From IMG/VR virus record IMGVR_UViG_3300023174_005819, positions 23,240-87,239 of that record: DNA of 64,000 bases, one strand, 5' to 3'. The translations under genes were made by a program, and so were the position numbers. Position 1 is the first letter of the stretch, and each line of letters begins with the position of its first letter. Shown here one piece after another: positions 1,152 to 61,941 of the stretch. This stretch comes from a virus. The notes beneath the pieces were generated by a model. The model was not told the DNA's origin. It made no database searches and was given only the letters and a program-made list of their open reading frames with translations.

Positions 1152-1160
1152 GTGTAATAA
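1152..1160 (+). promoter_or_regulatory. Putative late promoter box GTGTAATAA
   Basis: Matches the GTGTAATWWA box found before most structural operons in this window. It ends 5 bases before the ATG at 1166, so a transcript from it would have almost no leader. No -35 element is visible. Confidence 0.5.
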
Positions 1161-1165
1161 AGATT

Positions 1166-2431
1166 ATGGGTAATTATGATATAGCTTCTTGGCCAGCACG
1201 AGCAAATTCTTACAATGGAATAGCAAATATAGCTCTTAATGGTTGGGCGCAACAATATCCACTAAGCTTATACCAAGTATCACTTGCAACACCAACAATT
1301 TCTGCTACAGCGGGAGGAGATGGAAATGTATTATTAACTATTACCAATGGTAATTCATCATATAGATATCTCGTATATATTGATGGAGTAGGCGTTGGAT
1401 TTTTTAAATCAATAGACAATCAAATTACAATTTCTAATTTACCTCTTACCGTTCCTCATACAATTCGAATTAGATCTACATATGTAACTTATTCTGGAAA
1501 CACCGTAACAAGCGCAGGACTAAGCCAATTGAGCAATTCAGTTACAGTTACTCCACAATTTCAATTTGCAGCAAGAGTTCCACTTAACTTAAGACAACCT
1601 TATAATGGAGGAGTAGGTCAGTATAATCAACCTCCATATGATTATGTTGATGTAATAAGATTACCCTCTTTACTATACTCTACTTCAGATTGGGAATACA
1701 CCGACAATACATATACTGACCAAGAAGCTCCTGGTGCATACGCAATTCCACTTAGTCCATCTTTTAAAATTTCAATATATACAGCTCAAATAAGATTAAG
1801 AGCTAGAATAGTAAACGGAGCAAAAGATGAAACATATTTTGGAGCAGTAGATTACTCTTATAAAGATGTTGATGTTACTGTTGATGATCCATTTTTAGAT
1901 TTATATGGAGCTGATGGACATGATATCGGTTATTATTATTTTCAAAAATTGATAGAACTTGGATTATATCAAGCAAATATTAGCTCAAATATTTCTAGTG
2001 CAATAGGATGGAGACTTACAAAAGAATACATGCTTTCAAAACCTTATCTTGGTAATAAAATTAAAAATATTATTAAAAATAATTTTAACATCATAATGAA
2101 ATCAAGAGAAGCAATGCTACAATTTAGAGATATAACAAACTTTAATCCTAAACTAACTAAAGATTTTCAAGATTTTACAATAACATATCAAGGACCAATT
2201 TGGATTAATCCAAAAATCATTTCAACAAGCGGAACTCCAGATGAAGTAACAATACCAGCTAATGCACCACTATATAATTTAAAAAATTCAAAAAATAGAA
2301 TATTAAAAAGTGGAAATTCTGCTGCAGCAATACTTTTATCTAATCCTCAAGATTGTTCACATTATTCCTTTTCTGCAATCGCAGCGCCACTTAGTGCAGA
2401 TGACTATTATGGAAATGCGCCAGCTTCTTAA
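1166..2431 (+). CDS. Fn3-domain structural protein
   Basis: A 421-residue protein. Residues about 40-130 read as a fibronectin type III-like beta sandwich (alternating hydrophobics, a YLVYIDG strand, ending LSNSVTVTP), common in phage virion surface proteins. The rest, from about 135, is not recognised; it is rich in Tyr/Asn/Ile and includes a Lys/Asn-rich helix near 300-320. There is no signal peptide or membrane segment. The late-type box immediately upstream and the following structural-looking gene suggest a virion component, probably exposed. The exact role (fibre, decoration protein, baseplate) cannot be told. Confidence 0.6.
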   Translation: MGNYDIASWPARANSYNGIANIALNGWAQQYPLSLYQVSLATPTISATAGGDGNVLLTITNGNSSYRYLVYIDGVGVGFFKSIDNQITISNLPLTVPHTIRIRSTYVTYSGNTVTSAGLSQLSNSVTVTPQFQFAARVPLNLRQPYNGGVGQYNQPPYDYVDVIRLPSLLYSTSDWEYTDNTYTDQEAPGAYAIPLSPSFKISIYTAQIRLRARIVNGAKDETYFGAVDYSYKDVDVTVDDPFLDLYGADGHDIGYYYFQKLIELGLYQANISSNISSAIGWRLTKEYMLSKPYLGNKIKNIIKNNFNIIMKSREAMLQFRDITNFNPKLTKDFQDFTITYQGPIWINPKIISTSGTPDEVTIPANAPLYNLKNSKNRILKSGNSAAAILLSNPQDCSHYSFSAIAAPLSADDYYGNAPAS

Positions 2432-2440
2432 TATAAAAAT

Positions 2441-3277
2441 ATGACAACCGATAATACATCTTTAGAGAGCATTTGGAGCCAAACTGTTGGAGAAGATCCT
2501 ACAGACCCATATCTTAATTGTAACTCTTGCGAACTAGATTGCGCTAATCAAGCATTAAATGATGCAGCCGCTAATGTTTCAAACTTTCCATTTAACATGA
2601 AAGCAGCTGCCAAAAATGATTTTCTTGCTCCACAACCAAGCGCAATGGATATTCTTCGCCAGGAAGAGCACCTTAGAGCTTTTAACGCGGACCAGGCTGC
2701 AAAAAAAGGAGCAAGAGCAATGGTAGACTTGGGGCCCAGTCGAAGGTATCCTATCTCATTTTCTCCAAATAGAGGAGGTGGTGGAAGCCGATCATCTAGC
2801 GGATTTGAAGCAACTTCTATTGGTTCTGAAAATCCTTTAGGCCAAACAGGATCAGTAGGATTTCGATGGTCTGGTAATGAAGTTAGCTGGGATCCAGATA
2901 ATTTTCTTAACGAAACTAGTGGCAGCGTAGTAGTCGTTCCAGAGCAAGGAATTACAGATGTTGGAAATGCTGCTGGCAGTTTGTTGAGAGAAACTTTTAA
3001 TCCAACTCCCGATCCAGTTACAACTGTGAGTTGTTCAACTGACACAGCAGCAGCTACTGCTGCTGTTCCTGCCACTCCAACTACAAGTGGCCTTGGCGCT
3101 ACTGGATCACAATCAGCAGTAAGTGCAACGCAAGGAACCACAGTTACTGGAGGAGGAGGATTGAATCAAGCTGGCGGAGGATCAGTAAGTAGCGTAAAAA
3201 CTGGAGTAAATAATAATGGTGTCGCAACTCAAGGCAATGGGGGCTTCAGAGGGGTCAAAGCAACAATCAGGCCTTAA
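2441..3277 (+). CDS. Low-complexity Gly/Ser/Thr-rich protein, probably structural
   Basis: A 278-residue protein 9 bases after the previous gene. The N-terminus holds a small Cys cluster (LNCNSCELDC, residues about 26-35) followed by an Ala-rich helical stretch. Residues about 115-278 are mostly Gly, Ser, Thr, Asn and Val with poly-Gly runs, like a flexible linker or fibre tail. Base composition is clearly more GC-rich than the neighbouring glycan genes, as the Gly/Ala content requires. A long antisense frame (2548-3141) is a by-product of this composition. No known domain recognised. Confidence 0.55.
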   Translation: MTTDNTSLESIWSQTVGEDPTDPYLNCNSCELDCANQALNDAAANVSNFPFNMKAAAKNDFLAPQPSAMDILRQEEHLRAFNADQAAKKGARAMVDLGPSRRYPISFSPNRGGGGSRSSSGFEATSIGSENPLGQTGSVGFRWSGNEVSWDPDNFLNETSGSVVVVPEQGITDVGNAAGSLLRETFNPTPDPVTTVSCSTDTAAATAAVPATPTTSGLGATGSQSAVSATQGTTVTGGGGLNQAGGGSVSSVKTGVNNNGVATQGNGGFRGVKATIRP

Positions 3278-3288
3278 AAGATAATTTT

Positions 3289-3317: not shown

Positions 3318-3329
3318 ACTAAATAATCT

Positions 3330-4295: not shown

Positions 4296-4304
4296 TTTTT
4301 AATA

Positions 4305-5141
4305 GTGAAAATCTGGCTCTGCGGTATTACCCAAAACGAGAAACAGAATATTGATGATATGACAAAACATATATATCAATATTTTGATGGTTTAATTTTT
4401 GTAGATGGTGGATCAACAGATGGTACATTAGAAATATTAAATGCAAGAAAAGGCCAAGGAAAGATTGTAAACAGAGAATGGTCAAATGACCACGATATTC
4501 AAATGAATGGTTTTTTAAGAGCAAATGTAATGCAAAATGGCGATTGGTTTATTATTCGAGATAGCTGCGAAAGATTAGATATAGATTGGGCAAAAAACTT
4601 GCGTAATTTTATAGAAAATTTTTTAGAAAAAAATAAAGTAAATAGTTGTGTTGATAGGCAAAAAGCATTTCTTGTTAAATATTTTGATGATATGATATTT
4701 CAAGGTAGCCCGCATTGGGGACTACAAGGTATGAGGCCAGGATATATTGATCTTTATGAATATTATAATAAAAATCAAAAAATGTTTGCATGGGAAGAAA
4801 GACCATCTCAAAGAAAGCATTATATTGATAGTGATATGAAATATTATTTTGTTTACGGAAGATCAAATCATTGTGTTCTTCATTATTATGATAATGGAAG
4901 AACTCCAGAAAGATACCAACAACAAGAAGGCATAAGACAAAATTTTAGATCTTTTTGCGAAAGTTTAGGTATAAGATTTAATCTAGAATCATTAAAAAAT
5001 TATTGGAAAAATAATCCAATTGACGAAAAAATGAAATTTTTTATCAATAACGAAAGATTAATAAGAAGATTTTATAGATTAAATATTTTAAATCATACAT
5101 TAGAAAAAATTGACTCATCAGAAGAATGGGTATTAGAATGA
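4305..5141 (+). CDS. Glycosyltransferase, GT2-like (GT-A fold)
   Basis: A 278-residue protein with a GTG start 9 bases after the previous gene. The N-terminus reads KIWLCGITQNEKQNI then FVDGGSTDGT (residues about 32-41), the nucleotide-binding loop typical of family 2 enzymes. A DSCERLDIDW segment near residue 86 may supply the metal-binding aspartate region. The C-terminal part is helical and rich in Arg, Tyr and Asn. It overlaps the next start by an ATGA junction, so translation is coupled. Confidence 0.75.
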   Translation: MKIWLCGITQNEKQNIDDMTKHIYQYFDGLIFVDGGSTDGTLEILNARKGQGKIVNREWSNDHDIQMNGFLRANVMQNGDWFIIRDSCERLDIDWAKNLRNFIENFLEKNKVNSCVDRQKAFLVKYFDDMIFQGSPHWGLQGMRPGYIDLYEYYNKNQKMFAWEERPSQRKHYIDSDMKYYFVYGRSNHCVLHYYDNGRTPERYQQQEGIRQNFRSFCESLGIRFNLESLKNYWKNNPIDEKMKFFINNERLIRRFYRLNILNHTLEKIDSSEEWVLE

Positions 5142-6028
5142 AATTAATTGATTGCTTTATGTTTTTTAATGAAAAAGATATTGCATATCTTAGAATTAAA
5201 GAATTATATGATGCTGTAGATTATTTTGTTATTAATGAAGCCACGAAAACTCACCAAGGGCAAGATAAAGAATTATCCTTTTGGAAGGATGACAGATTAC
5301 AAGAATTTAAAGATAAAATTATTTACTCTTCAATAGATTTAGATGGAAGATTCGATTATTTAATGCCAAAATTTTTTCCAGATGCAAATATTGGCGCAAA
5401 GGAACATGAACAAAGAATAAGGCTACTCGAACAAATTGAAAAACTAAATCTATCAGATGATGATATCGTTATGATATCGGATTGCGATGAAATTCCTAAT
5501 AAAAATATATTCCAAGAAATTCTGAATTATCCAGTAGTAGCATTAAATCAAATGTTTTTTGTTCATTATATTAATATTTATACAAATAAAAATGTAACTG
5601 GAACCATAGCTTGCAAATATAAACATTTAAAACATTTAAATACTCTATGTTTTGGAATGGGTCTTCAGCTTTTAAGAAGAGATAAAGATTTTATGCCAAG
5701 GATAGAAAATGGAGGTTGGCATTATTCATATATGGGTGGACCAAAATCTGTAAGCAGAAAAGTAATCTCAACTTATGATGGAAATTTAAATTCTGAGTGG
5801 AAAACAGAAGAATCTTCTAATATGTTAATTCAAGAAAGTATAAAAAATAAAAAAAGTCCATTCTCTCAAATGCCATTAGAATTTATAGATTTAAATATAA
5901 AAAATAAATTCATAGAATTTTTAACAGCAAAAAATGGAACATGGATTAATGCACAAGGGTGTTATCAATTTTCTCCAAATATTTTGGAAAAAGACATACA
6001 AAATCATAAACATCTTATATATGAATAA
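5138..6028 (+). CDS. Glycosyltransferase, GT17-like
   Basis: A 296-residue protein. The start KLIDCFMFFNEKDIAYLRIKEL.. followed by YFVINEATKTHQG is the hallmark of GT17, the family of beta-1,4-mannosyl-glycoprotein GlcNAc transferases and its bacterial/phage relatives. Residues about 105-120 hold DIVMISDCDEIPN, the acidic metal/nucleotide site. I start it at ATG 5138, forming an ATGA overlap with the previous stop, because the family motif begins directly after this Met. Specificity in phages is unknown. Confidence 0.82.
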   Translation: MKLIDCFMFFNEKDIAYLRIKELYDAVDYFVINEATKTHQGQDKELSFWKDDRLQEFKDKIIYSSIDLDGRFDYLMPKFFPDANIGAKEHEQRIRLLEQIEKLNLSDDDIVMISDCDEIPNKNIFQEILNYPVVALNQMFFVHYINIYTNKNVTGTIACKYKHLKHLNTLCFGMGLQLLRRDKDFMPRIENGGWHYSYMGGPKSVSRKVISTYDGNLNSEWKTEESSNMLIQESIKNKKSPFSQMPLEFIDLNIKNKFIEFLTAKNGTWINAQGCYQFSPNILEKDIQNHKHLIYE

Positions 6029-6719
6029 TCCATTTGATTACTTTGATAGGATATATTGCATTAATCTTCAAGAAAGAACTGATAAGTGGCAACAATGCCT
6101 ACAAGAATTTACTAAATTAGGAATAGAAAATAAAGTAATTAAATTTAATGGAATTAAATTTATAGGAGAATTACCACCACAACTAAGATGGATTAATATT
6201 CGAGCCTGTGGATGCACAGCTTCGCATAGAGAAATTATAAAAATTTGCAATAATGAAAATGTAAAAAATGTACTAGTTCTAGAAGATGATGTAGAATTTC
6301 ACAATGACCCAATTAAAAATTTAAATTTATCTATAAATGAATTAAAAGATAAAGAATGGGATATATTTTATCTTGGAATGAATGTGACAGATGAAAAATT
6401 TAAAAATCCATTAGAGCGAGTAAGTCCAAATTTATTAAAAATCAAAAGCGCTCTCACAACTCATGCGATCGCATATAACTCTTCATGCTTTAAACTTATT
6501 TTAGATCATATTCCAGAAGGTTTAAATATTATTAACTGGCAGGCAGAAAATGAATCTTATGATGGATTTTTCATGAAACATTTCTTAAGTCAAAATAAAG
6601 CGTTTTGTACAAATGAATATTTAGCAACACAAAGAGATAGTTTTTCAGATATTAACCTTGGAAATGCAACTTATGGAAAAGCCATAATGGAAAATTTTTA
6701 TAGAATGCGACCAGCATGA
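6021..6719 (+). CDS. Glycosyltransferase, GT25-like
   Basis: A 232-residue protein. FDRIYCINLQERTDKWQQ near the start is the classic GT25 (LPS beta-1,4-galactosyltransferase family) opening, and VLVLEDDVEF near residue 95 is the acidic metal site of the family. The ATG at 6021 overlaps the previous stop by 8 bases and places the motif at residue 7. A second GT25 homologue lies far away at 61184-61927 on the other strand. Confidence 0.85.
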   Translation: MNNPFDYFDRIYCINLQERTDKWQQCLQEFTKLGIENKVIKFNGIKFIGELPPQLRWINIRACGCTASHREIIKICNNENVKNVLVLEDDVEFHNDPIKNLNLSINELKDKEWDIFYLGMNVTDEKFKNPLERVSPNLLKIKSALTTHAIAYNSSCFKLILDHIPEGLNIINWQAENESYDGFFMKHFLSQNKAFCTNEYLATQRDSFSDINLGNATYGKAIMENFYRMRPA

Positions 6720-7525
6720 TAACATTTTTTCAATTAGGTAAATATGGCGCAATTGGAAATCAACTTTTTCAATATGCAACATTATATTCTATAGGCAAAA
6801 TTAATAACTATGAGATTAAAATACCTAAAACAGAAGAACATTTTGATGAAGGTACAAATAGAATTCAGCATTATTTCTTAAATTGCTTTGATAATATCTC
6901 AGCTCAAATACTTACAGAGCAAGATGCTACATCAATAAAATATAAAGCATACGATGGCAACGCGATATCTTATAATAAGGACATATTCAACATACCAGAC
7001 TTCACAACATTAGAAGGATATTTTCAATCTTATAAATATTTTCATATTTTTAAAAAAAATTTAAAAGAACAATTAAAATTTAAACAATCTATTAAAAATT
7101 CTGCTGATAAAAAATATAATATAAATTATAAAGATTTTACTTCGGTTCATTTAAGATATGGAGATTATGCCCATAGACAAGATCACCATCCTATTATGGA
7201 CAAGGATTATTATCAAAGAGCTTTTGATTTAATAAACTGCTCAAATTGTTTGGTTTTTTCGGATAGTATAGATTATGCTAAAAATATATTTAATGAATTT
7301 AAGGATATAAATTTTACTTATATAGAAAATAATCACGCTTTTGAAGATATGTATATCATGTCTAATTGTAAAAATAATATTTTAGCAAATAGTAGTTTTT
7401 CTTGGTGGGCAGCTTGGTTAAATGAAAATAATAAAGTTATCGCACCAAGAAATTGGCTAGGCCCAGCGTACAATGGAAAATGGAATTTAGACGATTTAAT
7501 TCCAAAAGAATGGATTATTATATAA
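6716..7525 (+). CDS. GT11 family glycosyltransferase (alpha-1,2-fucosyltransferase-like)
   Basis: A 269-residue protein. GAIGNQLFQYATLYSIG (residues about 11-27) is the G.GNQ.FQYA opening of GT11; SVHLRYGDY (about 142-150) is the HxRxGDY donor-binding motif; NSSFSWWAAWLN (about 222-233) is the third conserved block. All three blocks are in the right order and spacing, so the family is secure. GT11 members transfer L-fucose from GDP-fucose, consistent with a Gmd homologue in this block. It overlaps the previous gene by ATGA. Confidence 0.88.
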   Translation: MITFFQLGKYGAIGNQLFQYATLYSIGKINNYEIKIPKTEEHFDEGTNRIQHYFLNCFDNISAQILTEQDATSIKYKAYDGNAISYNKDIFNIPDFTTLEGYFQSYKYFHIFKKNLKEQLKFKQSIKNSADKKYNINYKDFTSVHLRYGDYAHRQDHHPIMDKDYYQRAFDLINCSNCLVFSDSIDYAKNIFNEFKDINFTYIENNHAFEDMYIMSNCKNNILANSSFSWWAAWLNENNKVIAPRNWLGPAYNGKWNLDDLIPKEWIII

Positions 7526-7526
7526 T

Positions 7527-8138
7527 ATGCTTTTAATATCAGAAAAAACTTTTGAAAAAATTTCTCCAAATATAAAGGGAGTTATTCATATTGGAGCGCA
7601 TCATGGACAAGAACATGTATTATATAAAAAATATAATATAAATAAAATGATTTACTTTGAACCTCTAAAAGATGTTTTTGAGATTTTAAAATCAAATATT
7701 AATAATGAAGGCATAGTTGTAAACAAAGCGCTTGGTAATGAAAATAAAAAAGTAATGATGAATGTAGAGAAAAATAACCAAAGCCAATCAAGTTCAATAC
7801 TTAATCCAAAAATTCATTTACAACAATATAATTGGGTACATTTTAATCATAAAGAAGAAGTAGATATGATCAAACTCGATGATTACGAAGGAGACTTATC
7901 TTTATATAACTTTATTAATATAGACATTCAAGGATACGAACTAGAAGCTCTTAAAGGGGCATCTAAAGTATTAAATAATATTGATTATATTTTATCAGAA
8001 GTAAATCGCGCAGAAGTATACGAAGGATGCGCCCATGTAAAAGATTTATGTGATTTTTTACATACATATGGATTTGAATTAGAAGAGGTCTCATGGGCTG
8101 GAGAAACATGGGGAGATGGTTTATTTATAAAGAAATGA
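7527..8138 (+). CDS. FkbM-family methyltransferase
   Basis: A 203-residue SAM-dependent methyltransferase. VIHIGAHHGQEHVLY (residues about 19-33) corresponds to the glycine-rich SAM-binding motif I, IYFEPL to motif II, and FINIDIQGYELEALKGA (about 128-144) is the highly conserved FkbM motif. Family members often O-methylate sugars, so modification of the phage-directed glycan is likely. One base separates it from the previous stop. Confidence 0.85.
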   Translation: MLLISEKTFEKISPNIKGVIHIGAHHGQEHVLYKKYNINKMIYFEPLKDVFEILKSNINNEGIVVNKALGNENKKVMMNVEKNNQSQSSSILNPKIHLQQYNWVHFNHKEEVDMIKLDDYEGDLSLYNFINIDIQGYELEALKGASKVLNNIDYILSEVNRAEVYEGCAHVKDLCDFLHTYGFELEEVSWAGETWGDGLFIKK

Positions 8139-8998
8139 ATAAAAAAAATTTTAATTTAATAGATAATAATTTTGCTCACGATAAATATAGTGTTGCAGGA
8201 GTAGACTCTAAACATATAGCTTGGGATAGAGAATTAAAAGATTTAAATAATCCAACATTTTATTCTCATATTAGAATGTTAGATATACAAAAAGGCTTAT
8301 CAAGCAAAGATAAATCATATGGATTTATAGTAGAATCTAGAGGGATTGAAGCCCTTGGATATCAATTAGTAGAACCAGTTATACCATATTTTGATAAAGT
8401 TTTTACGCATAATTCTGATTTTATTAAAAAATATGAAAATTGCAAATGGATTCCTGGAGGAGGAATTTGGATTGGTGGAAGAAATGACTTACCTCATGGA
8501 GAAGGTGAAATAGAAATTTATAATAAAAATAAATTATGTTCAATGGTATCCTCTAATAAAAGAATGTGCGAATTGCATTTAGTTAGACTACAAATCATAG
8601 ATTTTCTTCAAAATAATACTAAAATAGATAAATTTACTGGCGGAGGAGGACCTGGAGATGGAAATTGGCTCCCAATTTTTAGAACACTAAAAGATTATAT
8701 GTTTTCAATTGTAATAGAAAATTATATAGATGATTTATATTTTACAGAAAAAATATTAAATTGTTTTGCAACTGGTACAATTCCAATATATCTTGGCGCA
8801 AAAAATATAGGATCAATTTTTGATAAAAATGGAATATTGCAGTTTTCTTCTTTTGAAGAATTTAATAATATTGTAAATAATTTATCAGAAGATCAATATT
8901 ATTCAAGAATGGAAGCGATTAAATACAACTTTAAAAAATCTTTAGAATTTAGATCTATAGAAGATTATATATATGAAAAATATTTTATTATTGGGTAA
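8135..8998 (+). CDS. GT10 family glycosyltransferase (alpha-1,3/4-fucosyltransferase-like)
   Basis: A 287-residue protein. FSIVIENYIDDLYFTEKILNCFATGTIPIYLGA (nucleotides about 8701-8800) carries the GT10 signature: a FENS-like segment, then YxTEK and the GxIPIYxG turn. An upstream GGGGPGDGNW segment precedes it. GT10 enzymes use GDP-fucose. I start it at ATG 8135 (ATGA overlap with the FkbM gene) because the longer frame would read through the previous gene. Together with the GT11 gene it points to a fucosylated or related deoxy-sugar product. Confidence 0.83.
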   Translation: MNKKNFNLIDNNFAHDKYSVAGVDSKHIAWDRELKDLNNPTFYSHIRMLDIQKGLSSKDKSYGFIVESRGIEALGYQLVEPVIPYFDKVFTHNSDFIKKYENCKWIPGGGIWIGGRNDLPHGEGEIEIYNKNKLCSMVSSNKRMCELHLVRLQIIDFLQNNTKIDKFTGGGGPGDGNWLPIFRTLKDYMFSIVIENYIDDLYFTEKILNCFATGTIPIYLGAKNIGSIFDKNGILQFSSFEEFNNIVNNLSEDQYYSRMEAIKYNFKKSLEFRSIEDYIYEKYFIIG

Positions 8999-9842
8999 AG
9001 GTTATATTGGATCAAATCTTGCGGAATATTTTAAATCTAAATCAGATATAAAATCAAATATTTATTCGAAACAAGATTTAAACTATTTAGACTTTTATAC
9101 TTTAAATAAATATCTCCAGCAAAATCAATCTATTGAAATAGATTATATTATAAATTGTGCTGGATATACTGGAAGGCCAAATGTAGAAGGATGTGAAAAT
9201 GATAAAGAAACTTGCTGGAAATATAATGTAAAATTACCAATTCTTTTAACAGAAGTAGCATCTTATTGGAAGATACCTATTATTCATATTAGTAGTGGAT
9301 GTGTTTATACTGGAAATGAAAAAGATTATACAGAAGAAGATGAACCAAATTTTGGAATTTATAATCAAAATAGTAGTTTTTATAGTAAAACTAAACATGC
9401 ATGCGAATTGTCATTAAAGAACACCAACTCCTATATCTTTAGAATAAGAATGCCTTTTTCACACAAATCTTCTGAACGTAATTATATAGATAAAATATTA
9501 AAATATGAAAATCTTATAAGTTATAAAAATAGCTTAACAAATATAAACGATCTTAATGAATTTATTTATAAATTTATAAATTTAAAAAATAAACCACAAT
9601 ATGGTATATATAATGTAACTAATGAAGGTTCTGCAGATGCAAAAGAAATAACAGAAATCCTTAAAAAATATAAACTACAAAATAAGAATTGGAAATTTTT
9701 TGACCAGAGCGAAATGAACTTCAAAGTTTCAAGAAGTAATTGCGTGCTTTCTACAGAAAAAATTAAAAAATTAGATTTACAATTACCAAATATTTTTTCT
9801 AGTATTGAAAATGCAATCAGTAGATTTAAAAATGATACCTAA
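8973..9842 (+). CDS. NRS/ER-like dTDP/UDP-4-keto-6-deoxyglucose 3,5-epimerase/4-reductase
   Basis: A 289-residue extended short-chain dehydrogenase. LLGKGYIGSN is the NAD(P)-binding GxxGxxG loop. CAGYTGRPNVEGCEN (residues about 63-77), a SSGCVY strand, SFYSKTK (the YxxxK catalytic pair) and RIRMPFS follow. This series matches the plant and giant-virus bifunctional nucleotide-rhamnose synthase/epimerase-reductase (UER1 type) better than ordinary bacterial RmlD, in which epimerase and reductase are separate proteins. With the RmlB homologue at 20170 it could complete L-rhamnose synthesis. The start overlaps the previous gene by 26 bases. Confidence 0.65.
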   Translation: MKNILLLGKGYIGSNLAEYFKSKSDIKSNIYSKQDLNYLDFYTLNKYLQQNQSIEIDYIINCAGYTGRPNVEGCENDKETCWKYNVKLPILLTEVASYWKIPIIHISSGCVYTGNEKDYTEEDEPNFGIYNQNSSFYSKTKHACELSLKNTNSYIFRIRMPFSHKSSERNYIDKILKYENLISYKNSLTNINDLNEFIYKFINLKNKPQYGIYNVTNEGSADAKEITEILKKYKLQNKNWKFFDQSEMNFKVSRSNCVLSTEKIKKLDLQLPNIFSSIENAISRFKNDT

Positions 9843-12124: not shown

Positions 12125-12126
12125 TT

Positions 12127-14054: not shown

Positions 14055-14067
14055 TATATAATATATT

Positions 14068-14691: not shown

Positions 14692-14711
14692 TATTTTTTA
14701 GTTTTTATAAA

Positions 14712-15710: not shown

Positions 15711-15719
15711 ATATTGTAT

Positions 15720-20161: not shown

Positions 20162-20169
20162 AATTATTC

Positions 20170-21144: not shown

Positions 21145-21153
21145 TATATCAAT

Positions 21154-39379: not shown

Positions 39380-39388
39380 TACTTTTAA

Positions 39389-39958: not shown

Positions 39959-39959
39959 T

Positions 39960-41348: not shown

Positions 41349-41349
41349 A

Positions 41350-42818: not shown

Positions 42819-42822
42819 TTTT

Positions 42823-47432: not shown

Positions 47433-47446
47433 GTTATCGTTTTTTG
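47419..47446. terminator. Hairpin with T-run between two convergent genes
   Basis: AACTTAT / ATAAGTT form a 7-bp stem with a 3-base loop (47419-47435), followed on the + strand by ATCG and a run of six T (about 47440-47445). The stop codons of the + gene (47430-47432) and - gene (47434-47436) lie in or beside the stem, the same design as at 37925. Confidence 0.5.
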
Positions 47447-50400: not shown

Positions 50401-53400
50401 AGCAATTTCATCGTTTGCTTTTTGTATTGCAGACTGTAGCTGGGCCTCTGTTCCAGATAATCCTGCTAAAAGTTCTTTTTGAATACCTTCGCTTACAGAC
50501 GAAAAAATTCTATTAAATGAAGCAGATCTTTGAGATTCTAATTTAGCTAAATCTTCTGGTCCAGCGGTAATTGCTCCAGATTGAATTCCTGCTACTTTTT
50601 CTCTTGAGGTTAAAAATGCTTGAACGTCTTCAGAAAATCTTGCTACTCTATTACCAGATTCTCTAGAGCTCTTCGCAAGCTCTTCTGATTTATCATTTAA
50701 TTGTTTAAAAGCTTTAGTTAATCCAATTGTAACACCAACTAATCCACCAAACGCTACGCCCAATGGCCCAAATAAAGCTCCTGCGCCAGCAAATGATGCT
50801 GTATCACTTAAAACTGTTGTTCCAGCTGTAGCATATTTATTATTTGGCATAAATTCTTGAATTATTTGGCTTACTATTGGAACGGCTATACTTGCTCCAA
50901 TTCCAATACCTTGTAATCTTGAAGCTGAATTAGCTCTTCTTTCTCTTGCTGCTTCTAATCCACCTCGCGCTAATTCTGCTCCTCTTCCTCCAGATGCTGC
51001 TCTTGCTTCTAATTGTTTTACGGCTTTAGAACCTGTTATTAAATTTCCACTTGCAGCAACTAATGAATCTGTTTCAACCACTAATCTTTTGTAAGAAGCA
51101 TCTGCGCGATTCAATGTATTTCTTACTTTTTCTGTAGTAGAATCAATTAAATAAAATTCTCTAGTAAGTTTCTCTAATTCTTTATTTGCTTGATCAAAAG
51201 TTAGTATTCCTCTATAAACTTTTTTTGCAAGATCTGTAAGCGCTGCATTAGCTTCTTTAGATGCTGGAACGATAAGTGGACCTGATTGTCCTTGATTTGA
51301 TTGATATAAAGCAAAATTAGGAATTAGTCCTTTAGCAGCACCTGCTCTGCGAGCTTCACTTACTGAACCATATCTTGATATGCCTTGAGATAATCCTCTT
51401 GGTTCATCTCTTGTATTATAAACTCCAAGACCGCTAGGATTCATATTAGAAATTAAAGAGTTATCTCTTCCGATTCTTATAGAATTTGGATTTACTCCAG
51501 CTTTCTTTTCTCTATTTATTGCATCATTTAAATCATTTGCAAAATTAGGAATAAATCCATCAAAAGCTTTTTTACCTTTAACTGTAGAAAATTTTCCTGC
51601 TCCAAGTAAAGCTCCTTCTTCTCTATAAATTTTATTTGCAAAACTTTGCAAATTACCTTCAGATAATCCACTTTTAAAATCTGCAAGAAATGTTGTAAAA
51701 CCAAAAAGTTTTTGTAAATGTATTAAATTTTTTCCTCCTCTAACGTCAAAATCTCCAAAGTCTTTTGGTGCTTCTTCAGCAGTATATCCTAATGCCGTTT
51801 TTATTCCAACTTCAAAAGCAGAACCAACTGCGCCACGAACTGCTCCATATGCTCCTTTTTCTCCAGAACGTTGAAATTGTAACCCTAAATTTGCTTTAGT
51901 TACAGTTTTTCCCAAAGGTTTTAATGTATCAATAAAATTAAATACATCATCTATGATACTATTAGTTATATTTGTGCCTAATCTTGCCTTATCGTCAGAA
52001 ACATCTCCATCTACTTTAGTTTTATTAATTCCATAAACTGGAACATTTTTAATTGCAAATCTATCAGATTTACCTTTTGGTGAATATGGTCCAGGTAATA
52101 TTTTTTTAGTTCCTGCGAATGGTAACAATATACTTGCAATATTACTAGCATCTACTGGTTTAATTCCTGCTGCTAACGCTGCTTTTTGACCCCTAGGAGA
52201 TCTGCTTAAAATATCATCTTTTTGAGCTTCAGATACAGTTAAAGCTTTTCCTGCTGAATCTACTCCATATTTAAATTTTTGAGTTCCTGGAATTCTTTCT
52301 AATTCATTTTTTATCGCAGCTAATCTAACTGCTTCATTTCTGCCCAACTCAAAATTTGGGATAAATCCACTATTGGCATAAGGATTAAATCCGTGAGCAT
52401 TAGAAAATTGTTTTTGATAATTTTTTCCAGCTTTGCTACCTTGAGGTGGCATTATAGCTGGTTGAGAAAATCCTTGTATTCTTTTTACTGTTTCTGCAGA
52501 ATTATAAACTACTCTACCAGCTCCAGCAATATTCATTTCTTTAATATTTCCTGGTTTATATCCTCCAGCTAATGCACCATAAATTTCTTGCATTGCAAAG
52601 TTTGGAATAAATCCATCACTTCTTGTAGTAATTTGCCCACCTTTAAGAGTTACTCCTCTACCAACTAATCCGCTAGTAATTGAACCAGATAAAGCCGTGG
52701 CTTGTTGTCTTAATGCATTTTGTTCTCTTAAGATTCCTAATATTCTATTTTCTACATCTAATATTGAAATTTGTTTAGAAGCTATTGCTGAAAGAAGTTG
52801 TGGTTCTTGAGAAAGAATACTCGAAATTTTTCCTTCAATAGCAGCTCTATCCGCAGCTTGCTTGCCAATACCTAGTAATGTTTTAGCTGAAGTAGCGGCA
52901 AATTTACTTAAATCTAAAAATAATTTTCCAATAACAGCTGTTATTAATAATAATCCAGGACCAGATATAAAAGTAGAAAGACCACCTAGAATTCCAGCTC
53001 CAATTTTAGCTCCAACGCTTTCTGAGTCTTGATTAGCTAACCCTTCTAATATATTATTTACATTTTTTAATGTGCCTTCGATTGCTGGTTGAAAAGCTCC
53101 CGCACCAATTTTAGCTCCTAACTGACTAAAGTTTGTTAGCGTTCTGCTTGTTAAAGCGGATAGAGTTTCATTTAATGCTTCATTTCGTTTAATGGCTTGA
53201 TCAGTCGCGCCTCTTGAAGTATTTAAAGCATTATTATAAACAGAATATTCTTTACCCAAATCACCCAAAGCAGCTTTTAAAATGTTAATCTGGAAAACAC
53301 CACCAACACTTTCTGCAACTTGTGATCTTTGAGCATCAGAAAGAGTATCAAAAGTTGATGACAATTCTTTTAAAATATCAATCGCTGGACGAGTGCTACC

Positions 53401-54231
53401 ATCTAAATTACGAACTTCTAAGCCTAAGTTTTGTAATTGATCCAATACTTCTGGTCTAGCAACTCTTGTAAAAATAGTCTTTAATGAATTACCAATAACT
53501 GCACCACCTCTAGCAGTAGTTTGCTGAACGCTTGTTACAATAGCTAATAATTCATCGAATCCAACCCCTGCGTCTTGAGCAGAACTACCAACTCGTTGAA
53601 TTGCATTAGCCAAATCAGCAGAACTAACAGCAAAAGCCGCGTCAACATTTGCTAATTTATTAATAACAGTTGTTGAATCTAGGGCTGTTTGATTAAAACT
53701 GTTTAATGTAGCTGTTAAGGCTTCTACGCTAGAAACAGTATCTAATCCACTTAATCTAGTTAAAATTAAAGCATCTCTTGTTCTTTTTAGTGTTTCTTCT
53801 ACGCCAAGACCTTGACGAGCTAATTCTGTTGCAGCTTCTGCAACTGATTGAAATGATTGTCCAGTATCTTTAGCTACGGTGAATAAATCTGCACCAAATT
53901 TTTCTAATCCCTTTGATGTTGTATTTAATATGATATTAATATCAGTAAGAGATTTTTCAACATCTATTGTACTTTTGATTAAACTAACGAAAGCTTTTTC
54001 TACAGCAAAAATTGATCCAGCACTAGCACCGAATGCGATAACACGAGCATTAGAAGCATCTAATGACTTTTGGAACTCGTTAGAAGCTCCAGTAATTCGG
54101 CCTAATGGCTGGGTAAAGGCCTTTTCATTAAATCCTTTGAATTTAAAATCGCGAGATAAAGCACTTTGAATATCTTTTTCAAGTTGCCTTGTATCTGCAC
54201 CTACAGAAATTGTAGCTGACGTTCTTGCCAT
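47434..54231 (-). CDS. Tail tape measure protein with embedded minidomains
   Basis: A 2265-residue protein. Residues about 1-450 are the TP901-type tape measure start: VAKDTGQSFQSVAEAATELARQG and SSAQDAGVGFDELLAIVTSVQQTTARGG. Residues about 538-975 contain four G[FL]IPNF motifs that divide short domains, one with a nuclease-like pattern (E807, D827/D829, D851-x-K853). Membrane-like helices occur at about 1120-1190. Coiled-coil helices follow. Two copies of a DD[VI]PA.L.GGE[YF]V.RK.AV..YG block, typical of tape measure tails, are near the C-terminus. Length predicts a long tail. Start has AAGGA before the ATG. Confidence 0.9.
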   Translation of the reverse strand: MARTSATISVGADTRQLEKDIQSALSRDFKFKGFNEKAFTQPLGRITGASNEFQKSLDASNARVIAFGASAGSIFAVEKAFVSLIKSTIDVEKSLTDINIILNTTSKGLEKFGADLFTVAKDTGQSFQSVAEAATELARQGLGVEETLKRTRDALILTRLSGLDTVSSVEALTATLNSFNQTALDSTTVINKLANVDAAFAVSSADLANAIQRVGSSAQDAGVGFDELLAIVTSVQQTTARGGAVIGNSLKTIFTRVARPEVLDQLQNLGLEVRNLDGSTRPAIDILKELSSTFDTLSDAQRSQVAESVGGVFQINILKAALGDLGKEYSVYNNALNTSRGATDQAIKRNEALNETLSALTSRTLTNFSQLGAKIGAGAFQPAIEGTLKNVNNILEGLANQDSESVGAKIGAGILGGLSTFISGPGLLLITAVIGKLFLDLSKFAATSAKTLLGIGKQAADRAAIEGKISSILSQEPQLLSAIASKQISILDVENRILGILREQNALRQQATALSGSITSGLVGRGVTLKGGQITTRSDGFIPNFAMQEIYGALAGGYKPGNIKEMNIAGAGRVVYNSAETVKRIQGFSQPAIMPPQGSKAGKNYQKQFSNAHGFNPYANSGFIPNFELGRNEAVRLAAIKNELERIPGTQKFKYGVDSAGKALTVSEAQKDDILSRSPRGQKAALAAGIKPVDASNIASILLPFAGTKKILPGPYSPKGKSDRFAIKNVPVYGINKTKVDGDVSDDKARLGTNITNSIIDDVFNFIDTLKPLGKTVTKANLGLQFQRSGEKGAYGAVRGAVGSAFEVGIKTALGYTAEEAPKDFGDFDVRGGKNLIHLQKLFGFTTFLADFKSGLSEGNLQSFANKIYREEGALLGAGKFSTVKGKKAFDGFIPNFANDLNDAINREKKAGVNPNSIRIGRDNSLISNMNPSGLGVYNTRDEPRGLSQGISRYGSVSEARRAGAAKGLIPNFALYQSNQGQSGPLIVPASKEANAALTDLAKKVYRGILTFDQANKELEKLTREFYLIDSTTEKVRNTLNRADASYKRLVVETDSLVAASGNLITGSKAVKQLEARAASGGRGAELARGGLEAARERRANSASRLQGIGIGASIAVPIVSQIIQEFMPNNKYATAGTTVLSDTASFAGAGALFGPLGVAFGGLVGVTIGLTKAFKQLNDKSEELAKSSRESGNRVARFSEDVQAFLTSREKVAGIQSGAITAGPEDLAKLESQRSASFNRIFSSVSEGIQKELLAGLSGTEAQLQSAIQKANDEIASNNFVNQFIQTTNEQLKDGAKNLDITDTLRQLGSIKTKNGEYIADLISQQSGLLKSFDTLTIASEKYYGINDQVAKSIEQASIAADKATMSIDEFAKNDIFGFNTTNVGGAGAAPAGFGSQKIQTIVDDLGNVTVINPSKEAYEKDLQTAIQDSGKGLKDFILQLGDSGKLEKDKALELADSIEKVLNSDKSLTEKSKALQDAFGNLRNTSREVDAAFKRQESAFLNLSNLSAQTQKLFSPDSVVRSQAADFIQKGDFGLLVEDFLNGPGQNLKQNEILRGTNLSALQGILTGTTDKRKRIALETKFGEAYKKAAQEIEETGNLTDRTLAELQIAIQQTSMEASMTSKNLVELGSSIGDAATRNEVLNIYTEKESQLKKELGDNIVKLNYASSAAATSLQAVAAFKEGTIFADEYKQLQNKAREDRIRSGQGNIGDAFSSFTDEMTYGAQDAFRDVNQTASDTARTIKSEFNNAFLSFANGTETASDAFTRMANNISDRIQQLALEFATNQIFGSLFGSTSGLGGGIGDFLSGLSKSKGGIIKGYSTGGHVLGGSGNKDDVPAMLSGGEYVIRKNAVKKYGPEYLQMLNEGKVQKHFLGGAMGLAMAGLGQGNPSMLQNIAPVFGINLGNSKGSNQNVSTNTSPTSRIGMRARQSDREDNYFKYGGRVQRFASGGETSYLGTNVYRYNDPLYPTAGQELFSSNLSGRAVTDPNNPQNRIRQDREQALYDYLNYVDGVRADNERALQENIALNKKIRDEYNQQKSAKSRGAWMSFGLGLLGAGASQFSSMGGFKSIFGAGSPLGSQEVRRATAVNDVNLRSAYGSTTYNPIQPAPYSGGRLKLGKAMGGYIRGFANGGSSGKDDIPALLMGGEFVMRKEAVNMYGKKFFDDLNSGRARKFAEGGSVGNDNTGNSSNYSPTNNINVTVNLNQEKIVSENKDESTSANEDRQAENQRTKELAARVKEQVIRTITEQQRPGGLLGSNVYKKR
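51315..52615 (-). repeat. Four G[FL]IPNF motifs in the tape measure gene
   Basis: Residues 540-545 (GFIPNF), 622-627 (GFIPNF), 892-897 (GFIPNF) and 968-973 (GLIPNF). Each is preceded by Asp/Ser/Ala and usually followed by Ala. Between them lie units with recurrent words: AGAGRVVYN, HGFNPYA, SIRIGRDN and GLGVYNTRDEP. Confidence 0.85.
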
Positions 54232-54250: not shown

Positions 54251-54261
54251 ATAAATTACAC
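54251..54261 (-). promoter_or_regulatory. Late box GTGTAATTTAT before the tape measure gene
   Basis: Read from 54261 on the - strand, 19 bases before the ATG. The leader contains GGAAAGGTATAAGGA (54246-54232) with an AAGGA ribosome site. Confidence 0.55.
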
Positions 54262-56018: not shown

Positions 56019-56290
56019 ATTTTTTCTCCATTAGTATTAATTAGACTGTCTAGATAGTTTTTAACTTTACCATAGTAAACTACGCCGCCAATCGTTTTAA
56101 TAAATCTGTGTTTTTTATCAGCATCCCAATTTTCATAGTTTTTAATAAAATTAGGATTCTTGAAGGTAGTTAAACTTGGTTTTAAAATTCCAAAGTTATC
56201 TTTCAAGTTTTTTTGTATGCTTTGTACAGAAAGGTTTCCTTCGATTATTTCATCTATAGGGAAATTATAATTTAATTTCTTAGTTTTCAT
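56015..56290 (-). CDS. Small hypothetical protein
   Basis: A 91-residue basic protein in the same - strand operon, overlapping both neighbours by 4 bases. Ends VVYYGKVKNYLDSLI. No family recognised. Confidence 0.5.
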   Translation of the reverse strand: MKTKKLNYNFPIDEIIEGNLSVQSIQKNLKDNFGILKPSLTTFKNPNFIKNYENWDADKKHRFIKTIGGVVYYGKVKNYLDSLINTNGEKI

Positions 56291-56511
56291 TTGAGCGTTA
56301 TGTTGATTTTACTGAAATTTTCTTCTATCTCTCGTACTGCATCATTGGCATTGTCAAGGATTCTTTTGCGTATTTTTTGATAAGTTTCATCATTTATATT
56401 ATAACCAGAATCACCTAAATCTTCAAGAATAAAAAAGAAATTCTTATATATATTTGTAATCTTCCTCTTTATCTGAAAAAGAGTCATGTCTTTTATAGGA
56501 TCGTTTTCCAT
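56287..56511 (-). CDS. Small hypothetical helical protein
   Basis: A 74-residue protein, first of its operon. Mostly helix (MTLFQIKRKITNIYKNFFFIL..). The late box is 36 bases upstream and the leader has AAAGGTAAAAGATT before the ATG. No family recognised. Confidence 0.5.
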   Translation of the reverse strand: MENDPIKDMTLFQIKRKITNIYKNFFFILEDLGDSGYNINDETYQKIRKRILDNANDAVREIEENFSKINITLK

Positions 56512-56546: not shown

Positions 56547-56555
56547 GAATTACAC
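56547..56555 (-). promoter_or_regulatory. Late box GTGTAATTC (- strand)
   Basis: Read from 56555, just downstream of the terminator of the tail-tube gene, and it would restart transcription of the 56511-54281 genes. The farthest box from its start codon (36 bases). Confidence 0.45.
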
Positions 56556-56558
56556 AAA

Positions 56559-56590
56559 AAATAACCCCCACGAGAACGTGAGGGTTATTT
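56559..56590 (-). terminator. Strong intrinsic terminator after the tail-tube gene
   Basis: AAATAACCC and CACG on the left arm pair with CGTG and GGGTTATTT on the right, with one C/A mismatch and an AGAA loop at 56573-56576. On the - strand the stem is followed by a T-rich TTATTTTTTG. It separates the abundant tube protein from the downstream genes. Confidence 0.75.
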
Positions 56591-56615
56591 TATAATTTAA
56601 TTTATGTATTATTTA

Positions 56616-57767
56616 TTAGAACTGTCCGTTCATAAACAATCCATTAGCTGTGTCTTGAGGTCCACCAACTTGAGTTTCCCATGTTAGGGTAACTGTTTTA
56701 TTGCTACCTATATCAGAACTATATTCTTGACTTACTAATTTGGCGCCTCGGAGTGCAAATTTAGCCATAACCAAATTCTTATCGCTTGGACTCTTAATTG
56801 TTACTGATGGACTATATCTAAGGCTATCATCATTAACCAAGTTAGCTAGGTTACCAGTTACCATATCAGTTACTTGAGCATCAACACTTAGATTTACTGT
56901 TAATGGGAAGTCAATTGGTCTTGAAAACGCGAATCTGTTACCTAGTCTTTCAATTGGAGTGCGAGCTAAATCAAAGCTAAGATTGTAACTTTGAATATTC
57001 ATTACTGTTGTATCTACTCCACCAACACCAGTTTGAGCTTGAATATCTAAAGTAATATCTCCTGGGCGAAGAGCGCTAATTGCATTTCCACTACCTATAG
57101 CAGTATTTTGAACTGCTGCTGGTAATGTATAAAAATTTCTTATAGGTGTACCATCAATAGTATTAACTGCAGGAACAAAATTTCCACTTAAACCTCTTTG
57201 GAAGTTCATATTCAATCCTTCAACATTTATTGATGCTGTTGGGAAATTACCAACTGAAGCTTCTGTTGAGTAAGACGAAATGAATCCATTACCAATTCCA
57301 ATAACTCCGTTATTTCCAGATGATACATCTGAAAAACCTACGGCATCATTACCTTCTGGTACTGTACGTATAAAATAATTTCTTTCGTCTTGAGTAGCAT
57401 TGAGGAATCCAGAAATAGCAGAAATATTAGAATCTGAGTTACCAGAAACTACTGTAAATCCTAAATCAGCTTCATTTGTAAGACCTGCTAAGATATAACT
57501 AAAATCTAATGAAACTGTTGGACTAGTCAAAATTACGCGATCAATTGCAGCGAGTTGACCAAATTGATTAACATCTGTACGAGCAACATTAAAACTATAA
57601 TTAGCAGTTTGAACTCTTTGTAACTGATTTACTAGGTTATTTGGATTAAGGAGGTCATTTGTACTTCCACCAATTCCAGGTGTGAATGTTCCAAAATGAA
57701 ATCCAGTTGCTGGTGATGGACCAGCATAAACCGCTTCTGATTGATAAATTATTCTATTTCTAGGCAT
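56616..57767 (-). CDS. Major tail tube protein candidate
   Basis: A 383-residue beta-rich protein. RNRIIYQSEAVYAGPS at the start, SPTVSLDFSYILAGL (residues about 83-97), PLTVNLSVDAQVTDMV and SVTIKSPSDKNLVM are typical alternations for tail tube folds. It has its own late box, a TGGAGAA ribosome site and a strong terminator behind it, the layout expected for a very abundant virion protein. No precise family recognised, hence a candidate. Confidence 0.6.
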   Translation of the reverse strand: MPRNRIIYQSEAVYAGPSPATGFHFGTFTPGIGGSTNDLLNPNNLVNQLQRVQTANYSFNVARTDVNQFGQLAAIDRVILTSPTVSLDFSYILAGLTNEADLGFTVVSGNSDSNISAISGFLNATQDERNYFIRTVPEGNDAVGFSDVSSGNNGVIGIGNGFISSYSTEASVGNFPTASINVEGLNMNFQRGLSGNFVPAVNTIDGTPIRNFYTLPAAVQNTAIGSGNAISALRPGDITLDIQAQTGVGGVDTTVMNIQSYNLSFDLARTPIERLGNRFAFSRPIDFPLTVNLSVDAQVTDMVTGNLANLVNDDSLRYSPSVTIKSPSDKNLVMAKFALRGAKLVSQEYSSDIGSNKTVTLTWETQVGGPQDTANGLFMNGQF

Positions 57768-57788: not shown

Positions 57789-57798
57789 GTTATTACAC
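57789..57798 (-). promoter_or_regulatory. Late box GTGTAATAAC (- strand)
   Basis: Read from 57798, 21 bases before the tail-tube ATG, with TGGAGAA between them. It lies between the convergently oriented end of the 57824 gene and this start. Confidence 0.5.
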
Positions 57799-59729: not shown

Positions 59730-60239
59730 TTATGAAGCATTATATATTGTTCTAATATAGTATAATGCATCCCTTTCAACTCTATAATCCCCTGGAATTG
59801 TATCATCTCCTGCAACTTGAAGCGGAGAACTAGCATTTACATTATATTTATATACTGAGTCTTTAAGCTCCTTGTATTCTTGTTGTCTAATATTATAGAA
59901 ATTTTTAAGTACTTCATTTTTATTTAATTTTTGTACACTACCAATATCATCTTTAATCGAAACATAATCATTAATAGCTAAACTTCCTGTACTTTTAATT
60001 TTAACATCAAAAAAGTAAATAGAATACATTTTTTTAAATATGTATTTTTCAGTATCTGTAAGATTTGGAGTAATTTCTAAAGTTGTACTATCTATTGAAA
60101 AAGAAGCATTTAATGAATTATTTAAACCACCAATATTTCTTCTTACCCATGCGGCGATAGCTGCTATACTAAAATCATCTGGTTCGCCCATTTCTTCATA
60201 TATCTCTTGGGCAATAGAAGTTACGGTATTTATTATCAT
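59730..60239 (-). CDS. Head-tail connector (adaptor) candidate
   Basis: A 169-residue protein. Helical N-terminus with IAAIAAWVRRNIGGLNNSL (residues about 25-43) and a helix bundle containing TDTEKYIFKKMYSIYFFDV, typical of gp6/gp15-like adaptor proteins. First gene of the operon, behind a late box that ends 3 to 5 bases before the ATG. Confidence 0.55.
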   Translation of the reverse strand: MIINTVTSIAQEIYEEMGEPDDFSIAAIAAWVRRNIGGLNNSLNASFSIDSTTLEITPNLTDTEKYIFKKMYSIYFFDVKIKSTGSLAINDYVSIKDDIGSVQKLNKNEVLKNFYNIRQQEYKELKDSVYKYNVNASSPLQVAGDDTIPGDYRVERDALYYIRTIYNAS

Positions 60240-60242
60240 ACC

Positions 60243-60253
60243 CTAAATTACAC
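60243..60253 (-). promoter_or_regulatory. Late box GTGTAATTTAG (- strand)
   Basis: Read from 60253; the ATG at 60239 follows after 3 more bases, so there is no room for a Shine-Dalgarno site. Confidence 0.55.
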
Positions 60254-60269
60254 TTTAAATTATTTAAAT

Positions 60270-61136
60270 TTAAAGTAAATATGATAGGATTTCTTGTTTG
60301 TTAAAGGCTTGGTCTAATTTATAATTACACTGATGAGGTATACCAACGAATTCTTTTTCTAGTATAATTCCATCTATATTATGAGTAAATATACTTGCGC
60401 TATCTTTTGCTATTATGTTTTTATGTATATTGTATCCTAATTTATCTGGAGATGTTCCTATCCAGCATACAATAGAAGGAAGCATTAAGGCTGCGCAAGC
60501 ATGTTGGGCAAATGAATCTATAAATAATCTTTTTTGACTTAACATCAAAAGACCAAAAATTTCGCGCCAATGTGTATTAATTTTTTCAACATGTTCATAG
60601 CTTTGTTGGTCTTGTCTGGCTATATGATAAATATGATATTTATCTTTTAAAGTATTAACTATGTCTTGCACTAAAAACGAAGGAAGATCTCTTGACCAAC
60701 TATATCCAGAACCTTCTCCTCCTCCATTTGTTTGTATAACCAAAATAGGTTTATTCCTATTATATTTTTTAGTAACATCAATGATTTCTGCATCATTTAA
60801 GAACAATCTAGGGTTTTCATTCGTATATTTTAAATTAAACATATTGCACCAAGATTCAATAATGTGTTTGTTTTGAACAGTGTATTCGTTACTTTGATAT
60901 ACTTCATTTCCTAAAAATATAGTATCTTTATCTTTAATAAAATCTTCATAAAAATATTGAGCAGTATTAGATCTATAAACTCTATAAATAAAAGGATTAT
61001 TTAAAAAAACTTCTGGATATGGACAGATTACAATTAACTTTCTATCTGGATAGTTTTTACTTATATTCTCTGCAATAGCTGTTGCAGCAATATGTTTACC
61101 AATTCCACCTTGAAGAAAAAATACTACAGTTTTCAA
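60270..61136 (-). CDS. GT9-like glycosyltransferase
   Basis: A 288-residue, single-gene GT9-like protein. VVFFLQGGIGKHIAATAIAENI (residues about 4-25) is the GT9 N-terminal loop (GGIGK/D...), QTNGGGEGSGYSWSRDLP the linker, and LFIDSFAQHACAALMLPSIVCWIGTSP (about 209-235) the donor-binding D...H block. Heptosyltransferase relatives transfer ADP-heptose or other sugars. Located in the structural operon, not the glycan block. Confidence 0.75.
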   Translation of the reverse strand: MKTVVFFLQGGIGKHIAATAIAENISKNYPDRKLIVICPYPEVFLNNPFIYRVYRSNTAQYFYEDFIKDKDTIFLGNEVYQSNEYTVQNKHIIESWCNMFNLKYTNENPRLFLNDAEIIDVTKKYNRNKPILVIQTNGGGEGSGYSWSRDLPSFLVQDIVNTLKDKYHIYHIARQDQQSYEHVEKINTHWREIFGLLMLSQKRLFIDSFAQHACAALMLPSIVCWIGTSPDKLGYNIHKNIIAKDSASIFTHNIDGIILEKEFVGIPHQCNYKLDQAFNKQEILSYLL

Positions 61137-61183
61137 TATAATATTATATTTTATTTAATGCTTAATATCAAAATTATTTGAAA

Positions 61184-61927
61184 TTATATTATTAATCTTT
61201 TATTTGAATCTTTTGAAGAATGTACATTGTCTATTATATCTGTTTCAGTTTGACAAGAGGCATTTGTTCCATAACAATTTATATCTTCGTATAAAAGGGC
61301 CATATATTCATCAACTGGACCCTGTATAGTAGATTCGTAAAGTTTTTTAGCCATATCTTTTGTTAAAACATACGAATGTAAACATAGAGCATATTTAATT
61401 TTTTGCAAAGGATATTCAAATTTAACATCTTCTACGTATAATGATTGTTCTGCGTATCCAGCAAGCCAACCTAATAAATATACATCAAAATTAATTTCCG
61501 TTTGATTTTCTATATAATCCAATAAGGGTTGTATTCTGCAAGTAAAAGTAATGTCATCTTCTAATATTAAAGAATAATCATAATTCATCGCTTCTTTCCA
61601 TGCTTTTTTATGACTTTTTGCCACGCATACTTCTGGTAACGACATACTTAATAAATCATTTTCTTTGTCATAATTTGTTAATTTTGATAATTCATATTGA
61701 TCTCTATGTGGACAAAAATATTTAGTTTTTATATTTTCTAATAAGTCTGTTTTGTTTATTTTTTCATAATCTATATATTCTTGATTGTTTTCATCTAAAG
61801 AAACAAAATTTTTATAATCTATTGCTGATATTTTTTCAAAAGATGGAATACCATGAAACTCAAGATGTTTTTTCATATATTCAAAACGATCTTGCCTTCT
61901 ATCTAAATTAATAATAAAAGTTTTCAT
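61184..61927 (-). CDS. Glycosyltransferase, GT25-like
   Basis: A 247-residue protein. TFIINLDRRQDRFEYMKKHL is the GT25 opening and YSLILEDDITFTCRIQPLL (residues about 118-136) the metal site. Paralogue of the 6021 gene. It has its own late box, so it is expressed with virion proteins; a role in glycosylating a tail or capsid protein is plausible (inference). Confidence 0.85.
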   Translation of the reverse strand: MKTFIINLDRRQDRFEYMKKHLEFHGIPSFEKISAIDYKNFVSLDENNQEYIDYEKINKTDLLENIKTKYFCPHRDQYELSKLTNYDKENDLLSMSLPEVCVAKSHKKAWKEAMNYDYSLILEDDITFTCRIQPLLDYIENQTEINFDVYLLGWLAGYAEQSLYVEDVKFEYPLQKIKYALCLHSYVLTKDMAKKLYESTIQGPVDEYMALLYEDINCYGTNASCQTETDIIDNVHSSKDSNKRLII

Positions 61928-61930
61928 ATA

Positions 61931-61941
61931 TTATATTACAC
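61931..61941 (-). promoter_or_regulatory. Late box GTGTAATATAA (- strand)
   Basis: Read from 61941; ATG at 61927 follows after 3 bases. Leaderless-type spacing, like those at 1152, 39379 and 60253. Confidence 0.55.

Follow-up and report, generated by a model that had tools for sequence, protein, structure and literature searches.

A GTGTAAW box at a fixed distance from start codons as a likely -10-only promoter class in an uncultured aquatic phage family

Introduction

The DNA analyzed here raises the question of whether a short box that recurs upstream of phage genes is a promoter of its own and, if so, which sigma factor reads it. The window is a stretch of 64,000 nucleotides (nt), positions 23240-87239 of the 87,239-bp IMG/VR virus record IMGVR_UViG_3300023174_005819, and its complete record is referred to as G000. 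An original prediction had proposed a late-promoter box, GTGTAATWWA, at nine sites of the window. We find a shorter signal, GTGTAA with A or T as the seventh base (GTGTAAW), which precedes many start codons by about 14 bases in a large uncultured family of aquatic phages. The case for reading this box as a promoter is strong, and we consider it likely that it is a -10-only promoter recognized by a phage-encoded sigma factor and giving mostly leaderless messenger RNAs (mRNAs).

Relatives were collected through the DNA polymerase and sigA, a candidate sigma gene described below, which yielded many related viral contigs. Thirteen records, including the window's own, were analyzed in full, with genes taken from a simple codon-based caller; this caller missed the 74-aa gene behind the box at 56555. 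A non-redundant set comprises 121 box contexts, 80 further loci included. Distances are given from the G of the box to the start codon.

Position and conservation of the box

All nine predicted sites carry GTGTAAW on the predicted strand, which is also that of the gene downstream, but the longer consensus GTGTAATWWA is matched by only four of them (1152, 54261, 60253 and 61941): the sites at 24915 and 39389 read GTGTAAA, and those at 39379, 56555 and 57798 deviate in the final positions. The raw copy number of the box, which the original prediction had offered as a check, is ordinary in the window (GTGTAAT, 9 copies vs 8.1 expected; GTGTAAW, 14 vs 17.4 expected), but its position relative to start codons is far above chance. 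Nine of the 14 GTGTAAW copies in the window are intergenic, where the non-coding share is only 4% (p=4e-10), and eight lie 12-50 nt upstream of called starts against 0.29 expected (p=9e-11); the unlisted copies, at 16521-, 45952-, 54957-, 60330- and 62479+, are intragenic. Over the whole 87-kb record, 12 of 18 copies are located upstream of starts, with 0.37 expected (p=9e-17), so that an equal frequency of the box inside genes is clearly not what is seen. A chance motif in AT-rich DNA, for which only the copy number speaks, is refuted by these positions and by the orthologous conservation described below, and its probability is negligible.

Across the 13 records GTGTAA is the top start-associated hexamer, with 169 of 255 copies 8-45 nt upstream of a start against 5.5 expected, and the positional enrichment reaches a p-value of order 1e-222, a pooled figure that overstates the count of independent events because many of the records are closely related. 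Of 226 copies of the box in these records, 169 are on the strand of a gene and no more than 60 nt upstream of its start. The commonest distances are 14 nt (55 copies) and 15 nt (42 copies). This fixed spacing, absent from the original prediction, is the strongest feature of the box. Among the 121 non-redundant contexts, 94 boxes lie at 12-18 nt and one at 19, while about a fifth lie at 20-49 nt. The signal is sharply delimited: 48-50% of all occurrences of GTGTAAA and GTGTAAT are found 14-16 nt before starts, as compared with 5% for GTGTAAG, the best of the other single-base variants, and less than 2% for the remaining ones. Any observed base change within GTGTAA, or a G or C at position 7, thus abolishes or nearly abolishes the association with starts.

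The prediction that the box lacks a -35 element holds. A position profile, k-mer counts and expectation-maximization revealed no more than a diffuse AT-rich signal that is not tied to any one position, and an upstream enrichment of TTACAC/TACACT is the reverse complement of the box itself, originating from divergent pairs such as 39373-39395. One conserved element without a -35 is the form of the -10-only promoters that are read by phage sigma factors.

The box is also retained in evolution. At eleven orthologous gene starts, among them those of the tape measure, minor tail protein and nrdB genes, almost every relative that has the gene also has the box, with counts of 9/9, 11/11 or 12/12 at several of them. 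Distant relatives, whose DNA polymerase is 62-68% identical and whose G+C content reaches 49%, retain it as well, and the pattern GTGTAAW N7 ATG occurs in 20 of 22 records, with 68 matches vs 8 for the reversed pattern.

Two promoter classes with a common geometry

A second class of promoters in these genomes, TTGACA-N16/17-TATAAT, provides an internal yardstick for the spacing. In this class the distance between the first T of TATAAT and the ATG peaks at 12 nt (70 of 144 genes), which puts the ATG at the +1 position for a sigma-70 promoter. Box-headed genes share this geometry, with TGTAAT beginning 13-14 nt before the ATG. A sigma-70-like promoter with at most two mismatches precedes 7 of 135 box-headed genes (4.0 in shuffled sequence) vs 144 of 372 other genes headed by an intergenic region (8.6 in shuffled sequence). 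The two classes are nearly exclusive, and this, together with the conservation across relatives, bears out the earlier proposal of a separate promoter class.

In both classes, a -10-type element is thus placed with its expected +1 at the start codon (14-15 nt for the box, 12 nt for the sigma-70 class), and mRNAs from boxes at 14-15 nt would be leaderless. Of the box genes with a spacing of at least 20 nt, 61% have a Shine-Dalgarno motif, as compared with 8% of those at 12-19 nt. The start codons look sound overall, since substitutions within the first 15 codons of box genes at 14-16 nt are codon-periodic (1021 at third, 494 at first and 258 at second positions) and this bias begins directly behind the ATG. 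Both the transcription start and the leaderless translation are deduced from the box-to-start spacing and should be read as predictions. That phage transcripts are often leaderless has been remarked in passing (PMC5312081).

Candidate sigma factors

The original prediction had seen no sigma gene, which is correct for the window itself. However, a gene for a 207-aa protein, termed sigA, lies on the same contig 4.3 kb to the left (G000:18330-18953, minus strand; -4909 to -4286 relative to the window), and a gene for a second protein, sigB, is present in longer relatives. Both are phage-encoded proteins of the sigma-70 family, and neither has a named relative in the phage collection. The sigA protein has weak Pfam matches to sigma families and a clear PHROGs match to phrog_351, sigma factor (E 5.6e-12); its structural model, with a mean pLDDT (predicted local distance difference test) of only 70, finds sigma factors in the PDB library with Foldseek and corresponds to a two-domain sigma. 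It belongs to an operon with a dCMP deaminase gene, a kinase-like gene, nrdA and nrdB, and in all 13 records it is a conserved TTGACT promoter, not a box, that stands at the head of this operon. A short open reading frame (24 codons in G000) heads this operon directly below the TTGACT promoter, and a similar one is found in relatives; in L002 it is located some 67 nt before the ATG of the dCMP deaminase gene at 8411 (-).

The sigB protein (227 aa, with a cysteine-rich insert) was found in G001 (L022:17239-17919) through a match to Sigma70_r2 (region 2). It is present in 8 of 25 records (G001, G014, G016, G017, G019, G023, G029 and G031), is 52-71% identical across lineages, and precedes genes for an ERCC4-type nuclease and a 613-aa protein whose sequence motifs read as those of a terminase large subunit. 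In every case, the records of the set that lack sigB also lack the neighboring genes of its block, which indicates that these contigs end elsewhere; the window's genome probably encodes sigB in a part that the record does not cover. Both genes occur together in G014 and G001. In the 158-kb record G031, sigA is absent from between its conserved neighbors, while sigB and an enriched box are kept, a combination that favors sigB without being decisive. G031 also encodes an ECF-like sigma (94114-94743, about 209 aa) and an RpoD-like sigma (117031-117993, about 320 aa).

As for other transcription components, a search for a single-subunit RNA polymerase (PF00940) gave no match, although its positive control gave none either, and no bacterial-type sliding clamp (PF02767) was found in six records.

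Proposed mechanism and alternative explanations

In the mechanism that we propose, GTGTAAW would be the sole, -10-type element of a second promoter class in the phage family, recognized by host RNA polymerase in complex with a sigma factor that the phage encodes. Transcription would start about 7 nt below the box, so that at a spacing of 14-15 nt the first nucleotide of the mRNA would coincide with the start codon or lie no more than about 2 nt from it, and translation would be leaderless; the minority of boxes at 20-49 nt would give short leaders, most of which contain a Shine-Dalgarno site. The promoters of early genes, the sigA operon among them, would be of the form TTGAC-N17-TATAAT and placed at the same leaderless distance. 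We give even odds to a broader view, in which the family runs an early and a sigma-dependent program mostly on leaderless mRNAs, one box hard-wired to the start codon sets the start of both transcription and translation, and two phage sigmas, one from an early operon and one encoded beside the terminase, order the program.

Several points weigh against this mechanism. The argument is built on DNA sequence throughout and connects the sigma factor to the box by elimination, and all of the records may be fragments. The region-4 helix-turn-helix of sigA (STQTAIN) is conserved though no -35 element was found, which would be odd if sigA read the box, and the RpoD-like and ECF-like sigmas of G031 mean that the absence of sigA from that record need not point to sigB. 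As the reader of the box, sigB is slightly favored over sigA. That sigA reads it, with sigB serving another purpose, is possible but doubtful: sigA is a two-domain sigma by fold search and is present in all 13 close records under an early-type promoter, but G031 keeps the box where sigA has disappeared from between intact neighbors, and the box stays unchanged as sigA identity drops to 33-45%, points to which its conserved region 4 must be added.

It is unlikely that the box is the site of a phage activator or the target of a host alternative sigma factor instead of the -10 element of a phage sigma. The inverted copies at 39373-39395 are dyad-like, small regulators are present (L002:4570-4920, phrog_385), and a host search among genome contigs returned one contig of a metagenome-assembled genome labelled Woesebacteria and distant Lactobacillus matches, which are uninformative as to the host. 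Most boxes, however, are single and directional, no other core element accompanies them, their distance to the start is that of a -10 element, and membership in the box class nearly excludes a sigma-70 promoter. A translation-initiation signal would also account for the strong peak at 14-15 nt, but it is very improbable, given that about a fifth of the non-redundant boxes lie well upstream of that peak, mostly with a Shine-Dalgarno motif, and that one stands directly behind a terminator; we know of no translation signal of this kind. The -10 element of a phage sigma thus remains our preferred reading of the box.

Comparison with known phage promoters

Promoters that consist of a -10-type element read by a phage sigma are a known kind, represented by T4, phiEco32 and Kayvirus. 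The middle and late promoters of phiEco32 (tAATGTAtA; PMC8948821), recognized by host RNA polymerase with the phage sigma gp36, likewise have a single -10-type element and no -35, and their published start lies 6-8 bp below the element; however, they share only the TGTA core with GTGTAAW, gp36 has no region 4 whereas sigA has one, and the word leaderless is absent from the text of that source. The late promoters of Kayvirus (Twort-like) phages (TGTTATATTA; PMC7698491) resemble the present class in their long -10 box without a -35, in the use of a phage late sigma and in being located within the virion region, next to early promoters of the sigma-70 type, but their box is different, only 12 late promoters are reported and leaderless use is not mentioned (PMC7698491).

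The original prediction had drawn its parallel with T4, whose late promoters (TATAAATA; gp55, gp33 and gp45; PMC2988020) are similar in that a phage sigma recognizes a downstream element only and structural genes are served. The box itself differs, TATAAATA as opposed to GTGTAAW. In a control on T4, TATAAATA was found 22-36 nt from starts and none of the seven GTGTAAW copies lay near a start; the sigA profile had no match in T4, where gp55 is the protein for comparison, and the gp45-type clamp PF09116 was found in T4 and in none of four records, which may be fragments. Phage 7-11 has a system of this kind with another box: its gp47-dependent late promoters (GTAAtg-N16-aCTA; PMC8948821) share a phage sigma with region 4 and late genes, but they are bipartite with a -35, which was not found at GTGTAAW.

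GTGTAAT was not found as a phage promoter in the literature searched. Novelty appears to lie in the box itself, in the sigma families and in the way promoter and start codon are coupled at a fixed distance in both classes, throughout a large family of uncultured phages. More sigma-promoter pairs are expected in phages (PMC8948821), an expectation that sigA and sigB fit. The system is sharply defined and testable in an uncultured lineage, and its regulated genes can be retrieved from metagenomes with a scan for GTGTAAW N7-8 RTG. Given the fixed spacing in both classes, most transcription units of these phages are predicted to start without a leader, a point that matters for how they initiate translation.

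Box-headed genes and other features of the window

The boxes of the window and the features next to them are listed in Table 1. The earlier view that they mostly precede structural genes holds for the tail and virion side, where the minor tail protein, the tape measure and unnamed genes of the virion region are box-headed, but the class is not confined to these: it includes a glucosyltransferase-like gene and one gene of the replication cluster (87 aa) in the window and, outside it, nrdB and three others that encode small or membrane proteins. Both nrdB and the 87-aa gene are box-headed in nearly all relatives. From the virion-side genes that the box would drive, we infer late timing; late expression fits these genes. 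In relatives, many unshared box-headed genes encode proteins that read as fiber-like, repeat or cysteine-rich by sequence. No usable model was obtained when the structure of the 383-aa protein was predicted in search of a virion fold (pLDDT 31). The box at 56555 stands right behind a strong terminator-like hairpin, which fits a promoter opening a new unit; the stem is near-symmetric and could act on both strands.

Table 1. GTGTAAW boxes of the window, with associated genes and hairpin. Orthologue counts give retention of the box.
Feature	Coordinates	Strand	Description
GTGTAAT box	1152-1158	+	14 nt before ATG of 1166-2431 (421 aa, no family match)
GTGTAAA box	24915-24921	+	15 nt before GTG of 24930-25193 (87 aa); 11/11 orthologues
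GTGTAAT box	39373-39379	-	15 nt before ATG of 38555-39364 (269 aa); 9/9 orthologues
GTGTAAA box	39389-39395	+	27 nt before ATG of 39416-39958; purine-rich Shine-Dalgarno-like stretch between; 9/9 orthologues
Minor tail protein gene (phrog_14), box-headed	39416-39958	+	First of lambda-like tail cluster 39416-46014
Tail tape measure gene, box-headed	47434-54231	-	2265 aa
GTGTAAT box	54255-54261	-	30 nt before tape measure ATG; Shine-Dalgarno-like AGGAAAGG between; 9/9 orthologues
GTGTAAT box	56549-56555	-	44 nt before ATG of 56287-56511 (74 aa); box in 6/7 relatives
Terminator-like hairpin	56558-56591	-	15-bp stem, U-run, ends 2 nt before box; -21.1 kcal/mol, z -8.0
GTGTAAT box	57792-57798	-	31 nt before ATG of 56616-57767 (383 aa); Shine-Dalgarno-like TGGAGA between; 9/10 orthologues
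GTGTAAT box	60247-60253	-	14 nt before ATG of 59730-60239 (169 aa); 8/8 orthologues
GTGTAAT box	61935-61941	-	14 nt before ATG of 61184-61927 (247 aa, glucosyltransferase-like, phrog_2835)

The two boxes at 39373-39395 point apart with 9 bp between them, serving divergent genes, an arrangement kept in relatives. One gene family, represented by G004:33506-34321, comprises 20 genes in 7 records, of which 16 have their own GTGTAAW 14-17 nt upstream; the member that was read is cysteine-rich.

Elsewhere in the window, the phage carries a transfer-messenger RNA gene (RF00023; tag AKTAKYKGHISARASLVELTASVA) at 340-728 (+), and its DnaE-like DNA polymerase seems to be split into an N-terminal part (29245-29991) and the rest (30851-33433), both assigned to phrog_405. 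A long gene run at about 4300-22300 (+) includes several sugar-nucleotide or carbohydrate enzymes (epimerase, nucleotidyltransferase, uridine-kinase-like) and many genes without family match, and a GLEYA/PA14 domain protein, possibly a sugar-binding adhesin, is encoded at 61953-62537 (-).

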